DNA from: Calothrix sp. CSU_2_0 | Lineage (GTDB): Bacteria; Cyanobacteriota; Cyanobacteriia; Cyanobacteriales; Nostocaceae | Direction: 5' to 3' | DNA length: 64,000 nt | Assembly: GCA_012034595.1 (NCBI GenBank) | Contig: JAAUPE010000005.1 | Span: 1 to 64,000 of the forward strand | Shown: positions 17,404-30,522 of the stretch, piece after piece | Position numbering within the stretch: position 1 is the first letter of the stretch | Layout: every line of letters begins with the position of its first letter | Made by a program: the position numbers and the translations under genes | The notes under the pieces: generated by a model | Told to the model about the DNA's origin: nothing | The model's database searches: none | What the model saw: only the letters and a program-made list of their open reading frames with translations

Positions 17404-18930
17404 ATGAAATTAGCTTACTGGATGTATGCAGGTCCCGCACATATTGGGACACTGCGAATTGCCACCTCGTTTAAAAATGTTCACGCGATTATGCACGCGC
17501 CTTTGGGGGATGATTATTTTAATGTAATGCGATCGATGTTGGAACGCGATCGCAATTTTACTCCAGTCACTACCAGCGTTGTCGATCGCAATGTCTTGGC
17601 AAGGGGTTCGCAGGAAAAGGTGGTAGATAATATTACCCGTAAGGATGGGGAAGAAAACCCCGATTTAATCGTTCTTACCCCTACTTGTACTTCGAGTATT
17701 CTCCAGGAGGATTTGGGAAACTTTGTGGAAAGGGCGGAAATCGAGTCAAAATGCGATGTTATGCTTGCGGATGTCAACCACTATCGCTATAACGAGTTAC
17801 AAGCTGCCGATCGCACTTTACAACAAATTGTGCAGTTCTATATTGACAAAGCTCGTAAAAAAGGTGAACTCCCCTCAAGTAAGACAGAAAAACCTTCAGT
17901 TAATATCATTGGTGTTTCCACTCTCGGTTTCCACAACCAACACGACTGTACCGAGTTGAAGCGGTTAATGGCAGATTTGGGAATCGCAGTTAATGTTATT
18001 ATCCCTGAAGGCGCTGTAGTTCACGACCTGAAAAATCTTTCCCGTGCTTGGTTCAACCTTTGCCCCTATCGCGAAATCGGTTTGACGACAGCTAAGTATC
18101 TTGAAGAACAATTCGGCACACCTTATGTAGATATTACGCCAATGGGTGTAGTTGAGACTGCCCGTTGTATCCGCAAAATCCAGCAGTTAATTAACGTTCA
18201 AGGTGCTGATGTTAATTACGAAGACTTTATTAACAATCAAACCCTTCATGTATCACAAGCTGCATGGTTTGCCCGTTCCATCGACTGCCAAAATTTAACA
18301 GGTAAAAAAGCAGTTGTATTTGGTGACAATACCCACGCAGCAGCGCTAACCAAGATTTTATCGCGGGAAATGGGTATTCATGTCGTCTGGGCTGGTACTT
18401 ACTGTAAATACGATGCAGATTGGTTCCGCGAACAAGTCAGCGAATACTGCGATGAAGTAATTATAAGCGAAGACCACGGCGATATTGGCGATGCGATCGC
18501 ACGGGTTGAACCTTCGGCAATTTTTGGTACGCAAATGGAGCGTCACGTTGGTAAACGTTTGGATATTCCTTGTGGTGTAATTGCTGCACCAATCCACATT
18601 CAGAATTTCCCGATTGGTTATAAACCGTTTATGGGGTATGAGGGAACTAATCAAATTACCGATTTGATTTATAATTCTTTCACTTTGGGAATGGAAGACC
18701 ATTTACTCGAAATTTTTGGTGGACACGATACCAAAGAGGTAATTACTAAAGGTATTTCGGCTGAATCTGATTTGAATTGGACAAAAGATGGTTCAGCAGA
18801 ATTGAATAAAATTCCTGGTTTTGTGCGGGGGAAAGTGAAGCGAAATACTGAAAAGTTCGCACGGGAAAGAGGAATTCAGCAAATAAATGCTGAGGTTCTT
18901 TACGCTGCGAAGGAAGCAGTGGGAGCTTAG
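17404..18930 (+). CDS. chlB: Light-independent protochlorophyllide reductase subunit B
   Basis: A 508-residue ChlB, full length for the family. With ChlN it forms the NB component that takes electrons from ChlL and reduces protochlorophyllide to chlorophyllide in the dark. The N-terminus [20 protein letters not shown] is characteristic. Asp36 in HAPLGDDYF is at the position known to ligate the NB [4Fe-4S] cluster in place of a cysteine. The C-terminal segment around residues 450-508 ([20 protein letters not shown]) is the PCP_red-type small domain found in ChlB. chlL and chlN are not adjacent, as is common for chlB in cyanobacteria. The start is supported by GAGAAAGG 6 bp upstream. Confidence 0.97.
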
Positions 18931-19189: not shown

Positions 19190-19843
19190 ATGGCACAAAC
19201 AATCGGCATCAGAAAGGCAATAAACAACCTGAATGAAGCTCACAAAAAGCTAAATTTGAGTCAAAATAGTCAAACTAATTTCTTCACAGAATGGTTTGAT
19301 AATTTACCTGAGTTAGAAGAAAGCGAAAAAAACACTCTTAACCGTTTAAAAAATCGATATTTATATTACTCTGCTGATGGTGCAATCACAGAAGGAACAG
19401 TCAATATTATTATTCTATCGCCATTATTAGAATTAATCGGTTTGTGTGACCCACCATATAAAATTCGTAGCGAAAAATTAGTCACAATCGAAATCGAAAA
19501 TGGAGCAGAAGAGGAAGAAACTATTTTAGAAGGATTTATTGATGCTTTAGCTATACAAAATCAACTTTGGATAATATTAATTGAATCAAAACGTTATGGT
19601 TTTAGCGTTATGCAAGCTTTACCGCAAACACTAGCATATATGTCAGCAAACCCAAATCCAGAAATTCCAACTTTTGCGATGATAACAAATGGAGAGGATT
19701 ATATTTTTGTGAAATTAAACCAGCAAAAACAATATGCACTCTCTAATAAATTTACTCTCGCTAATCCCGTGAAAAATGAGCTTTACGATGTCATGCAGAT
19801 AATCAAACGAATTATTTCTGCTTCTATCATTCCTCTCATATAA
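19190..19843 (+). CDS. HsdR-N-like PD-(D/E)xK nuclease-fold protein
   Basis: A 217-residue stand-alone protein resembling the short 'type I restriction subunit R' proteins common in cyanobacteria. The segment EGFIDALAIQNQLWII then LIESKR, near residues 118-138, supplies a D...E-x-K nuclease signature, and AITEGTVNIIILSPLLELIG upstream fits the preceding helix. It has no helicase, HsdM or HsdS partner here, so it cannot be a complete type I system. It may be a solitary nuclease or an inactive relative. It sits 595 bp ahead of the CyRepA1 gene in an AT-rich island, suggesting arrival on a mobile replicon. Confidence 0.65.
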   Translation: MAQTIGIRKAINNLNEAHKKLNLSQNSQTNFFTEWFDNLPELEESEKNTLNRLKNRYLYYSADGAITEGTVNIIILSPLLELIGLCDPPYKIRSEKLVTIEIENGAEEEETILEGFIDALAIQNQLWIILIESKRYGFSVMQALPQTLAYMSANPNPEIPTFAMITNGEDYIFVKLNQQKQYALSNKFTLANPVKNELYDVMQIIKRIISASIIPLI

Positions 19844-20437
19844 AAACTCAATATTCTCTTTTTTTGACTTTTTCCGAGACTTACACAGATGTCATAGTCC
19901 ACATATTGACGTTGCTGAATTTTAGATATCGCACAAGTCAAAACATTTCCCCAGGTCATCTGTACTACGCAATACTTCAGTACCCCTTAATTTCGAGACT
20001 TCCCTGTCAACATCGCAAAAATCACATCAACATTAGTAATATTCCAGGAAAATGTTACTTTTATTACATTTAATATCCAAAACTATGTATAGCAATCAAG
20101 CCCAGCTATATCAATCTATTCAGAAGCATTTAGTAATCTTCGAGAAGTTGATTAATACTTTTTTAATGTTTTCATTACTAATTGAAAAGGTACAAAGGTA
20201 TTATTTATTCAATGAGAATATTACTGGTTTACAAAAGTTATTTGCGAAAAAATATCACAATACAAACTTATTACTACAATAGTAGAAAGGGAATAAAAGC
20301 ATCTCAAATACATAACCGATGTATTTGAAACGACGATGTAAAAAAAAGCAGCTCATCAACCTCAAAAATACTTCTATCAAAACAAATAAATGCATGGTAA
20401 GTTATTAGCTCTACAGTTCCACACTGCCTCACACCAC
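19844..20437. other. AT-rich spacer before the CyRepA1 gene
   Basis: No convincing gene. Short ORFs (19864-20073, 20052-20282) have no recognisable features, though the second contains an ATG-initiated 65-codon frame from 20085 that could be a small protein. The notable element is the palindrome at 20304-20328, listed separately. Confidence 0.5.
20304..20328. repeat. 10-bp perfect palindrome upstream of the replication gene
   Basis: TCAAATACAT-AACCG-ATGTATTTGA, about 110 bp upstream of the CyRepA1 start. There is no following U-tract. It is a candidate operator or origin element for the downstream replication gene. Confidence 0.7.
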
Positions 20438-23400
20438 ATGCATCTCCATTATCTACACCCCCAGCACCTTGAAGAACTAGTCGAGGATAGCGGTATAGAT
20501 ACCCATCTAGCAAGTTTAAATTTTACTTCGCTCCAAGACAGCGACGCATATGATTATTTGCTGATTTCAGCACAAGTACCCCGTACAAACACAGGAATGG
20601 TGAGAAATAGCTGGTTACAACGCTATTCGCACACTACATCTGGTGGTTGGTGGTGTTCTGGACTCGATCCGCAAAATCATTGGCAAGCGATGGAATGGGG
20701 TTGTTTTAAACCGAATCTACCTCGACTCAACCAAAAAGGTAAATGCATTAAATACGAACATCCTCCGGGTACAGCAACAAGGATATTTTGTTTGCGTGTG
20801 ACGTTGCAAGTATGGCAAGGAGTTGCCCAACGTTATAATTTAAGTATTCCGGAATTCAATATTTCTGAATTAAAAGCTTCTGAATTAAAAGCTTCTGAAT
20901 TTCAGATTTCGGAGCAGCAAACAGAAAATTCTGACATTGATTTAAACGAAGAAAGTTTGGGTTTTTGGCAATGGGTAATGGAACATGATGTTCCGATAAT
21001 AATTTGTGAGGGAGTCAAGAAAGCTGCCGCATTATTATCACTAGGATATGTTGCGATCGCAATACCGGGGATTACTAGTGGGTATCGGGTTGCGAAGGAT
21101 AAATTTGGCAAAGTTGTGAGTCGTCAATTGATTCCTGATTTAGCAGCTTTTACGATTACTAAACGTACTTTTTATATTTGTTTTGATTTTGAGACGGAAC
21201 CCCAAAAAGTTGCTGCTGTTAATAATGCAATTTCACAACTAGGTGGATTGTTCCAATCCAAAAAATGCCCCGTTCAAGTAATAAAATTACCGGGGGGAGA
21301 AAAGGGAGTTGATGAATTTATTGTCAATCAGGGAATAATTGGGTTTGAGAATATCTATAGTCAAAGCTCAGACTTAGAAATTTATCTGGCTCAAATCAAA
21401 CCCCATACTCAATTAACCATACCTGCTGCACTCACTGTCAACAGTCGCTATTTAGGGGAAATTGCTTTTCCCAATTCTGGGTTAGTTGGAGTTAAATCAG
21501 CGAAAGGGACAGGAAAAACTACCGCACTACAAAAAACTGTCCAGCAAGCGAAAAACAATCATCAACCTGTTTTACTGATTACTCATCGGATTCAGCTTGG
21601 CAAGTTTTTATGCGGGAAAGTTGGAATTCAATGGGGATTAAAAAATACTGGGTATAGAAAGGGAGAAGGAAAACAAGAAATACAAGAAGAATTAAATATT
21701 AATATTTCTTCTCCATCTGTTGGACTTTGTGTTGATTCGATTTGGAAACTCAATCCAGAAGATTGGCATGGGGGAATAATTATCTTAGATGAAGTTGAAC
21801 AATCTTTATGGCATTTACTTCATAGTAGTACCTGTAAAGATAAACGAGTCAAGCTTCTTAAAAGTTTCCAACAGCTAATTTATACAGTTTTGACAACAGG
21901 TGGTTTAATCATCGCTCAAGATGCGGATTTGTCTGATACTTCGTTAGATTATTTACAACAACTGTCGGGAATCAAAATTACTCCTTGGGTTCTAGTTAAT
22001 CAGTGGAAACCAGAAAAAGGATGGGATGTTACTTTTTACGATTCTCCCAATCCAACACCATTAATTCAACAACTTGAATTAGATATACTTGCTGGACGTA
22101 AATGTTATGTAACTACCGATAGTAGATCTGGACGTTATAGTTGTGAAACTATCGAACGCTATTTAAAAGAACGTCTCGAAAAGTTACATAAAGTATTTCC
22201 TAAATCTTTGTTAGTTAGTAGTCGGACAACAAATACTCCTGGACATAACGCTGTTGATTTTGTGGCAGAAATTAATCAAAAAGTAATTGATTATGACGTG
22301 GTTTTTGTGACTCCTAGTTTAGGAACAGGAGTTAGTATTGATGTGCATCATTTTGACCGCGTTTATGGTATTTTTCAGGGGGTAATTCCCGACTCAGAAG
22401 CACGACAAGCACTAGCTAGAGTACGTGATAATGTACCTCGTATAGTTTGGTGCGCTAAACGCGGAATTGGTTTGATTGGTAGCGGTAGTACCAATTACAA
22501 ATTACTTTCAGATTGGTATCAAGAAAATCAAAAAGAAAATCTAGCTTTACTGAGTCCATTACATAAAGTTGATGTTGATTTACCTTTAGTATATGACCCA
22601 ATTCACCTACGAACTTGGGCAAAGGTATCCGCAAGGGTAAATGCTTCAATTAGCATTTATCGTCAATCAATGAAAGAAGGTTTGATGGTAGATGGACATC
22701 AAATCTGGCTCAGAAGTAATGATATTCAAAACAATATTATTAGAGATTTACGTCATGCTTTCTTAGCAACCGATCCTAGTGACTTGCCTACTCGTCGTCG
22801 ATTAATATTAGAGATAGTCAAAGTTCAAAAAGATTGGATGGAAAGCAAACAAAAGGCAAAAGAAATTAGCAATAGTATTCGCAAAATTAAAAAGCAGAAT
22901 CAATACGTCATGGCAAATGCAGTCGCAAATGCAAAAGATATTGATTATGTGGAATACGAGCATTTATCTACAAAACATGCTCTGACAGAAAAGGAAAGGC
23001 AGCAAGTTAATAAATATCTGCTCTGGCAAAAATATGGGATTAAAGTCACTCCAGAGTTAAAACAGCAAGACGATAAAGGCTACTATTCGCAGCTATTAAT
23101 CCACTATTACCTTACCCATGAAAGCGAATATTTTCGATGTCGAGATAAGCAAGAATTATATCAACAATTAATTTCTGGAGAGGGTAAAGTTTTTTTACCA
23201 GATTTAAAAGGTTATACCTTAAAAGTTGAAGCATTACGCGCTTTAGGAATGCAGCAATTTTTGGAACCAGAGCGGGAATTTACCGAAGATAATGTCGATT
23301 TAAATCGTCTCAAAAATATGGCTTTACAATGCAGCCAGCACATTAAACGAGTCTTGGGAATTAATATTATTAATGAAGTCGAACAAATTTCTGGTCTCAA

Positions 23401-23749
23401 AATATTAAATAGATTACTAAACTTGTTGGGATTGAAGTTAAAGCGAGTTAATAAAAGTTACATAATCGATAAATTATTACTCAATGACGGTAGAGAAGAA
23501 ATATTTACGATTTGGCATCAACGAGACAAACTAATGTTGGAAAACACCAAGTTAGAAAATCTGAATTTAGACAGCATTAATTTAGAAAACATGAACTTAG
23601 TGAATATCCCAAATATTGATTCTGAGACAGGTAGCTCTATAAATAGTTACACCGATACTTATAAAGATAGTTATCATGTATCAACACATCAGACAAATAT
23701 TCAAGACTTACCAATTACCATTCCAGTAATACAGACTGTTCCGTTTTAA
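20438..23749 (+). CDS. CyRepA1-family plasmid-type replication protein
   Basis: I start at ATG 20438 (MHLHYLHPQHLEELVEDSGI), which matches how this family begins; the ORF track adds 16 residues. The protein has about 1103 residues. A DUF3854/Toprim-like domain lies around residues 185-310 (IIICEGVKKAAALLSLGY, then YICFDFE). A P-loop helicase follows, with Walker A VGVKSAKGTGKTT near 355 and Walker B IIILDEVEQ near 450. This architecture is that of the CyRepA1 proteins of cyanobacterial plasmids, which join primase-like and helicase-like functions to start replication. The region near residues 140-155 holds a 15-bp internal repeat (ELKASELKASE), and the C-terminus has NLxN-like repeats. Neighbours look chromosomal, so this may be an integrated plasmid or a resident chromosomal copy. 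Confidence 0.8.
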   Translation: MHLHYLHPQHLEELVEDSGIDTHLASLNFTSLQDSDAYDYLLISAQVPRTNTGMVRNSWLQRYSHTTSGGWWCSGLDPQNHWQAMEWGCFKPNLPRLNQKGKCIKYEHPPGTATRIFCLRVTLQVWQGVAQRYNLSIPEFNISELKASELKASEFQISEQQTENSDIDLNEESLGFWQWVMEHDVPIIICEGVKKAAALLSLGYVAIAIPGITSGYRVAKDKFGKVVSRQLIPDLAAFTITKRTFYICFDFETEPQKVAAVNNAISQLGGLFQSKKCPVQVIKLPGGEKGVDEFIVNQGIIGFENIYSQSSDLEIYLAQIKPHTQLTIPAALTVNSRYLGEIAFPNSGLVGVKSAKGTGKTTALQKTVQQAKNNHQPVLLITHRIQLGKFLCGKVGIQWGLKNTGYRKGEGKQEIQEELNINISSPSVGLCVDSIWKLNPEDWHGGIIILDEVEQSLWHLLHSSTCKDKRVKLLKSFQQLIYTVLTTGGLIIAQDADLSDTSLDYLQQLSGIKITPWVLVNQWKPEKGWDVTFYDSPNPTPLIQQLELDILAGRKCYVTTDSRSGRYSCETIERYLKERLEKLHKVFPKSLLVSSRTTNTPGHNAVDFVAEINQKVIDYDVVFVTPSLGTGVSIDVHHFDRVYGIFQGVIPDSEARQALARVRDNVPRIVWCAKRGIGLIGSGSTNYKLLSDWYQENQKENLALLSPLHKVDVDLPLVYDPIHLRTWAKVSARVNASISIYRQSMKEGLMVDGHQIWLRSNDIQNNIIRDLRHAFLATDPSDLPTRRRLILEIVKVQKDWMESKQKAKEISNSIRKIKKQNQYVMANAVANAKDIDYVEYEHLSTKHALTEKERQQVNKYLLWQKYGIKVTPELKQQDDKGYYSQLLIHYYLTHESEYFRCRDKQELYQQLISGEGKVFLPDLKGYTLKVEALRALGMQQFLEPEREFTEDNVDLNRLKNMALQCSQHIKRVLGINIINEVEQISGLKILNRLLNLLGLKLKRVNKSYIIDKLLLNDGREEIFTIWHQRDKLMLENTKLENLNLDSINLENMNLVNIPNIDSETGSSINSYTDTYKDSYHVSTHQTNIQDLPITIPVIQTVPF

Positions 23750-24021: not shown

Positions 24022-25047
24022 ATGAAAGTCGCTGTATTTAGTACAAAAGCCTACGACAAAAAATTCCTGGAAATAGCAAACACTAACCAACAATACGAGT
24101 TTGCATTCTTCGATCCTCACCTAAGTAAAGACACAGCAATTCTTGCCACAGGATTCCCCGCAGTCTGTATTTTTGTCAACGATGAAGCGGATGCAACAAC
24201 CCTGGAAATTCTTGCCACACATGGCACAAATTTACTTGCCCTTCGTTGTGCCGGATTTAACAACGTTGATTTAAAAACTGCTGCCAAATTAGGAATTAAA
24301 GTAGTTCGCGTTCCTGCATACTCACCTCAGTCAGTCGCAGAACATACGATCGCAATGATTCTTTGCCTCAACCGCAAGATTCACCGTGCTTACAACCGTG
24401 TCAGAGAAGGTAATTTTTCCCTCGACGGACTGATGGGATTTGACCTGCGCGATCGCACTATTGGTATCATTGGCACAGGGAAAATTGGCGCGATCGTCAG
24501 TCAAATACTCACAGGATTTGGTTGCAAGATACTTGCCTACGATGTCTACCGCAATCCCGAAGTCGAAGCATTGGGAGCAAAATATGTCGAACTTCCAGAA
24601 ATTTTTGCCAATTCCGACATTATCTCATTGCATTGTCCCCTCATGCCGGAAACCCATCACCTCATCAACAGCGATGCAATCGAAAAAATGAAACCTGGTG
24701 TCATGTTAATTAATACCAGCAGAGGTGCTTTAATTAACGCCAAAGCTGTGACTAGGGGCTTAAAATCCGGTAAAATTGGCTCGTTAGGTTTGGATGTATA
24801 CGAAAAAGAATCTGACTTATTCTTTGAAGATTTGTCGGGAACCATCATCCAAGATGACGTTTTTCTACGTCTAACAACTTTTCATAACGTCTTGATTACT
24901 GGACACCAAGCATTTTTCACCGAAGACGCTTTAAGTAATATTGCGGAGACTACTCTTACTAATATTACTGAACTTATGCAGGGAGTTCCCTGTGCTAACG
25001 AGGTTAAAGCTGAACCGAAAATTTTATTGCCAATCGCACAATCATAA
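24022..25047 (+). CDS. ldhA: Fermentative D-lactate dehydrogenase (2-hydroxyacid dehydrogenase)
   Basis: ATG 24022 (MKVAVFSTKAYDKKFLE) follows GTGAGG; the GTG at 24010 in the ORF track is less likely. The 341-residue enzyme reduces pyruvate to D-lactate with NADH. The Rossmann motif GIIGTGKIG is near residue 150. Catalytic Arg lies in LRCAGFNNVDL, Glu in the YEKES region, and His in LITGHQAFFTEDAL near residue 294. This is the LdhA-type 2-hydroxyacid dehydrogenase used in dark fermentation. Related dehydrogenases share the fold, but the match to D-LDH is good. It appears monocistronic. Confidence 0.9.
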   Translation: MKVAVFSTKAYDKKFLEIANTNQQYEFAFFDPHLSKDTAILATGFPAVCIFVNDEADATTLEILATHGTNLLALRCAGFNNVDLKTAAKLGIKVVRVPAYSPQSVAEHTIAMILCLNRKIHRAYNRVREGNFSLDGLMGFDLRDRTIGIIGTGKIGAIVSQILTGFGCKILAYDVYRNPEVEALGAKYVELPEIFANSDIISLHCPLMPETHHLINSDAIEKMKPGVMLINTSRGALINAKAVTRGLKSGKIGSLGLDVYEKESDLFFEDLSGTIIQDDVFLRLTTFHNVLITGHQAFFTEDALSNIAETTLTNITELMQGVPCANEVKAEPKILLPIAQS

Positions 25048-29716: not shown

Positions 29717-30522
29717 CTTTCAAGGGTAGGTATTTAAAAATCAGGCAGTAGAGAGGGTGATTTGAGAGACATGGAGTTGTGGTGTTAAGCTTGGCCAAGG
29801 TTCAGGAAAAAAGCTACCTTGAGGTAGGGGAAGACGATTAAGAACGGCAGCCTTAATCACTAAAAATCCACGACGAAAACACGAGAGACAACGATGGAAG
29901 ACACTATTTTTAAAATTGCGTCGTGCAACATGGGTTTGTGGTAATTCGTCTAAACTACTAATAGGCTTGCTTGGCATCAATAGCACCTCCAACACTAACC
30001 TGCCATAAAGTAGCGATTGCGATCGCTAACCAATGTCTCTCGGCTCGTTTGGGGTCTGTCATTTTAGTTTGATGCCAAGCGAAACCACCTCTTTTGCCGT
30101 CTTTAAATAGACATTCAATCCAAGAGCGCATCGAATACCAACAAGCATCCGCAACTTCGGGGTGTAAATCAGTGAGAATTAACCAAGGTTCGGCATAACC
30201 CTCGTCATGACGGGCTAACAATGTACATTCAATCGGGTTACTTTTGAAACAAGTTACTAATGACTTAGTATCCAGCATAGTAGTGGACTAAAACAAGATG
30301 TTATATCGAGTGAAGTTCGACCAGTCCACATTGCGAGTACAACAGCTTGAGGTTTTGTGAGATTTGGCATTTTTTCAATTACTTTTCTAGTCCATTCTCT
30401 TAATTCCTCGCTTTTTCCTACTTGCATTCACCCTCCTACACCCGTAGTAATTCTGCTGATAAAACCTAGATAAGTATTTTACCTGCAAAAATACGCCTTT
30501 ATTAAATACCTACCCTTGAAAG
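29717..30522 (-). mobile_element. Internally deleted insertion sequence with 21-bp terminal inverted repeats
   Basis: A 21-bp sequence starting CTTTCAAGGGTAGG at 29717-29737 is repeated exactly in inverted orientation at 30502-30522. The 806 bp between hold the start and the end of a DDE transposase gene but not its middle. I see no clear target duplication in the flanks. The element probably cannot move itself but could be mobilised by an intact relative. Confidence 0.82.
29741..30427 (-). pseudogene. Transposase remnant (N-terminus joined to C-terminal part)
   Basis: From ATG 30427 the first 40 codons (MQVGKSEELREWTRKVIEKM, then PNLTKPQAVVLAMW) look like the start of a cyanobacterial DDE transposase. 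The frame then breaks, and 29958-30278 resumes with the C-terminal catalytic part (CTLLARHDEGYAEPWLILTD, then SWIECLFKDGKRGGF). A further one-base shift near 29960 leads into the last 84 residues (LPQTHVARRNFKNSVFHRCL). The middle of the usual roughly 400-residue protein is missing. I think it is IS4-like but cannot fix the family. The gene is dead. Confidence 0.8.

Follow-up and report, generated by a model that had tools for sequence, protein, structure and literature searches.

The CyRepA1 protein Slr7037 is essential for the maintenance of pSYSA as an autonomous replicon (PMC9978351). Homologs of CyRepA are also encoded on the chromosomes of 80 of 145 cyanobacteria, a distribution that was reported without further analysis and with a call for validation (PMC10899382). 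How chromosome replication starts without DnaA in many cyanobacteria is an open question in the literature. In Nostoc/Anabaena PCC 7120 dnaA is dispensable, and the chromosome starts replicating at several sites by a mechanism called unknown (PMC7198777); dispensability of dnaA in Nostoc PCC 7120 has been confirmed (PMC7283527). For the Nostocaceae, a 2020 survey named no case other than a symbiont whose dnaA is a pseudogene.

The window (the whole 64,000-nucleotide stretch analysed here) belongs to a draft genome of 7.4 Mb, in which it is contig C50, and carries on its plus strand an open reading frame of 1119 amino acids at positions 20390-23749. The first-pass annotation had assigned this reading frame to the CyRepA1 family, and the assignment was confirmed by a score of 413.6 bits against the curated HMM NF042913 (cut-off 200 bits), by a DUF3854 match (6e-48), and by a DUF3854/Toprim and SF2 helicase domain structure in which all Toprim and helicase motifs are intact. 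The true start is most likely M17 (20438) rather than the first ATG at 20390, because relatives begin there and the stops upstream differ; the conserved N-terminus of relatives begins at MHLHYLHPQHLE, which corresponds to position 20438 and to a protein of 1103 amino acids (20438-23749, plus strand). The upstream ATG falls inside a conserved word of the leader described below. The closest named relatives are found in Calothrix elsteri CCALA 953 (89% identity) and Calothrix sp. NIES-4101 (81%), and the best plasmid match is only about 38% identical. A second CyRepA protein in the same genome (contig C258, 48200-51700) belongs to the plasmid clade, is close to one in genome G001, and has a relative on Trichormus variabilis plasmid A.

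Two features of the protein bear on its possible activity. The Toprim motif reads FD[FYH]E across the whole chromosomal clade, as opposed to FDxD in plasmid forms, and a near relative in genome G050 likewise has FDFE; with this clade-wide replacement of DxD by DxE, the primase activity may be altered. The best profile match of the helicase part in the PDB is the herpesvirus UL9 origin-binding helicase (E 3e-4). UL9 is also the best Foldseek match (4e-11), a result that is supportive only, since it was obtained with an AlphaFold model of moderate confidence (pLDDT 62, low at the N-terminus).

Among 211 Nostocaceae genomes of at least 90% completeness, a CyRepA1-clade ortholog is present in 200, in a single copy per genome and at about 60-91% identity. 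By best E-value alone the count is 199; it is raised to 200 because genome G172, first scored as an absence, has the leader and the N-terminus of the gene at a contig end, where the contig breaks. The ortholog is absent from the remaining 11 genomes (G009, G011, G015, G115, G118, G129, G204-G207 and G219). In a comparison with related genomes, nearly every member of the family had one copy at 69-91% identity, and the multi-copy CyRepA proteins were set apart by identities of about 45% or less. Where the assembly allows the replicon to be assigned (G002, G016, G021, G027, G030, G032 and G034), the ortholog lies on a single-contig or main chromosome and not on an extrachromosomal CyRepA1 plasmid replicon. 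In five sister families of the order the ortholog occurs patchily, at 53-65% identity. Phylogenetic trees place all orthologs, including those of the sister families, in one clade (SH-aLRT 100) whose stem measures 1.3-1.4 substitutions per site, and the plasmid and multi-copy forms fall outside it. Pairwise distances of the ortholog follow those of chlB (Mantel r 0.74, reached in 0 of 2000 permutations, 26 taxa), and an overall dN/dS of 0.07-0.14 indicates purifying selection. The gene is thus resident on the chromosome, inherited vertically and under constraint, and has a leader of its own. The earlier description of a plasmid-type gene in a chromosomal context holds for the family name only; the gene belongs to a chromosomal clade of its own and is not a plasmid form. 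An annotation as 'plasmid replication protein, CyRepA1 family' should accordingly not be taken to indicate a plasmid.

Directly before the gene lies a previously unreported leader, about 225 nt long (20212-20437, plus strand) and deeply conserved. In alignments across genera its mean conservation per 20 nt is about 0.58-0.84, compared with 0.25-0.50 farther upstream. Block 1, at the 5′ end (20218-20276, plus strand), has the consensus TTTACTGATAAATAAAAATTA...AAATATCACAATACAAA-TTATTACTT, and the middle block, block 2 (20314-20352, plus strand; AACCGATGTAT...ACGAAGTAAAAAAA), includes a pair of AMCGAWGTA-like words with a spacing of about 19 nt. The start codon is flanked by the inverted words ATGCATG (20390-20396) and CATGCAT (20437-20443), which together span 20390-20443 on the plus strand and pair in single-sequence folds. 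The 10-bp palindrome noticed upstream of the gene in the first-pass annotation does exist as an exact inverted repeat at 20304-20328 (TCAAATACAT-AACCG-ATGTATTTGA), but it is a fragment of the leader and is not conserved as a palindrome: the loop and the right arm are kept in relatives and the left arm is not. Its count of 0 in 100 shuffles is an unfair test because the pattern was picked after the fact.

A sequence model of block 1, searched in 18 genomes, gave one strong match per genome, directly upstream of the gene, wherever the Nostocaceae gene (or the G172 fragment) is present. The model had no match in the gene-less genomes G011, G015, G129 and G204, and none at the sister-family copy in G055. 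The leader itself matched none of the plasmid CyRepA loci examined and no Rfam family. Three candidate identities were rejected: a structured RNA, as there are neither consensus pairs nor an Rfam match; a dispersed origin element, given the one strong match per genome in the 18 genomes; and an element common to plasmid CyRepA genes, given the lack of a match at the loci searched. Because the leader is a single copy bound to the gene, has no plasmid-locus or Rfam match, and shows no consensus RNA fold, it reads as a cis element proper to the CyRepA1 gene, a promoter/operator and/or a putative protein-binding site.

As first annotated, the CyRepA1 gene and a stand-alone nuclease gene lie between chlB (17404-18930, plus strand) and an ldhA-type dehydrogenase gene (24022-25047). 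Since 30 of the 75 ortholog loci with flanks have chlB upstream in the same orientation, the chlB-CyRepA1 adjacency appears to be an old neighbourhood, with chlB as the probable ancestral upstream neighbour. The nuclease (19190-19843, plus strand; 217 amino acids) is HsdR-N-like as described, just passing the PF04313 HSDR_N cut-off (25.7 versus 25.1 bits), and consists of the PD-(D/E)xK nuclease domain only; no helicase, HsdM or HsdS that would make it part of a type I restriction system accompanies it. It had been proposed as a stability or exclusion partner of the replication gene, a proposal that fails because none of the ortholog loci examined, not even that of the congener NIES-4101, has the nuclease nearby, and because its relatives form a multi-copy family dispersed elsewhere. 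Its place beside the CyRepA1 gene is due to chance. The family has 7 matches in this genome, none in NIES-4101 and 16 in G020. Solitary nucleases of this type, of about 210 amino acids, are scattered and multi-copy in many genomes of the order, with up to 16 matches per genome. Elsewhere in the window, short minus-strand reading frames at 29741-30278 resemble transposase remnants.

The same 211 genomes were searched for dnaA, with a recheck using a DnaA protein. Thirteen genomes, of four genera, have no intact copy of the gene, which is absent in 11 (G015, G062-G065, G088, G094, G095, G099, G101 and G203) and broken in two (G016 and G233). A further candidate, G175, was rejected as dnaA is split there by the assembly only. 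The CyRepA1 ortholog is kept in 12 of these 13 genomes, with motifs intact in the 7 of 7 dnaA-less orthologs checked and with dN/dS of 0.07-0.20 between dnaA-less pairs. Since the gene is kept by almost all heterocyst-forming cyanobacteria, dnaA-less species included, it is a candidate part of DnaA-independent replication. The protein is not a universal or obligatory substitute for DnaA, because G015 has neither gene, and G048 and G051, two dnaA-less genomes from two genera outside the Nostocaceae, lack any CyRepA. Nor is the ortholog universally essential, as 10 dnaA-positive Nostocaceae genomes are without it. Mutual exclusivity of the two genes was considered and is not significant: one double loss is observed where 0.7 would be expected under independence, and there is therefore no sign of mutual dependence. 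GC skew, sampled at 20 × 20 kb in five genomes and thus with weak power, revealed no origin at the locus. Both genomes of genus g14 are dnaA-less; in G203 the CyRepA1 gene survives as a more divergent copy (66%) whose leader is weaker, and in G015 it is lost. Relaxation of the CyRepA1 gene in this genus is possible.

The explanation that best accommodates these observations, with a probability of roughly 0.58, is that a CyRepA family member was domesticated on the chromosome, where it is passed on vertically under a conserved control region of its own, and that it serves chromosome replication in initiation or restart. The first-pass annotation had offered a resident helicase-primase with a chromosomal role as one of its options; residence is borne out, and the role itself is an inference. 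In the proposed mechanism, the SF2 helicase, whose nearest solved relative is UL9, would together with the Toprim domain open or enter chromosomal DNA, and the protein would prime or load forks independently of DnaA and oriC, acting either as an initiator or as a factor for restart or recombination-dependent initiation. The leader would provide autoregulation and possibly a binding site, and the adjoining nuclease would be incidental. Counting against this explanation are the absences in G015, G048 and G051, the lack of exclusivity in gene loss, of a skew-defined origin and of extra leader copies, the DxE change, and a literature in which no experiment on a chromosomal CyRepA was found.

Narrower accounts of the function fare less well. 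A chromosomal repair or fork-restart helicase of Rep descent, unrelated to the choice of initiation mode, is a possible but rather unlikely alternative: absence from 11 of 211 genomes is what would be expected of an accessory repair factor, and the Toprim DxE change and the missing origin signal at the locus are in keeping with it, but no repair-gene neighbourhood was found at the ortholog loci and the tested functions of the family are Rep functions. It is also unlikely that the protein is specifically the initiator sought for DnaA-independent replication of Nostocaceae chromosomes, working at its own leader, at dispersed sites or at both. The intact gene in nearly all dnaA-less or dnaA-broken Nostocaceae genomes of the four genera, the plasmid initiators among the family members, the UL9-like helicase and the conserved cis leader all speak for such a role; against it stand the genome without both genes, the 10 dnaA-positive genomes without the ortholog, the absence of a skew signal and of dispersed leader copies, and the lack of statistical exclusivity with dnaA. 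Because double absences exist, it could not be the sole solution in any case. Management of plasmids in trans, by replicating resident plasmids or excluding incoming CyRepA plasmids, is improbable: Nostocaceae hold many CyRepA plasmids and paralogs, but the protein is often the sole CyRepA of its genome (one match in G010, G016, G018, G021 and others), and no copy of the leader turned up at those plasmid CyRepA loci that were searched. An integrated plasmid or phage-satellite island still able to replicate, the reading suggested in the first-pass annotation by a Rep protein of a plasmid family and an upstream inverted repeat, can be dismissed almost entirely, as the gene is a vertical single-copy ortholog without the patchy presence and empty sites expected of such an island, its essentially complete conservation in relatives, part of what the first-pass annotation itself had named as refuting, already refutes mobility, chlB synteny recurs in many genomes, the nuclease is unlinked, and the interval has neither an integrase nor a structural gene, no tRNA or integrase at its ends, and only chance-like 15-27-mers in place of bounding direct repeats or attachment sites.

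The gene would exemplify a plasmid Rep protein turned chromosomal near-core gene. A more specific history is unlikely, in which the cyanobacterial chromosome captured a plasmid-type Rep ahead of the heterocystous radiation, and the protein then settled as a resident initiator that made DnaA dispensable and permitted repeated loss of dnaA. For the question of DnaA-independent initiation, the gene offers a concrete, single-copy and conserved candidate, with a defined upstream element, in the genetic model group (Nostoc/Anabaena).

Comparison with known systems places the protein within the CyRepA1 family and apart from its plasmid members. It shares with Slr7037 of pSYSA the DUF3854/Toprim and SF2 helicase architecture, the full set of helicase motifs and a score above the family cut-off, whereas it is chromosomal and vertical, shares 33-39% identity with those plasmid forms that were compared, and differs from them in the Toprim signature and in the leader. 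The herpesvirus helicase UL9 (PDB 9hgj, 9hgi) is alike in its SF2 core, the best match by both profile and fold, but the matched stretch includes no Toprim domain, and the likeness shown does not extend to a DNA-binding domain. The function of DnaA at oriC is possibly replaced or supplemented by the CyRepA1-clade protein, to which the DnaA protein is unrelated. Compared with the earlier count of chromosomal CyRepA homologs (PMC10899382), one clade is here shown to be a vertically inherited near-core gene preceded by a conserved leader, and its distribution is set beside the loss of dnaA.
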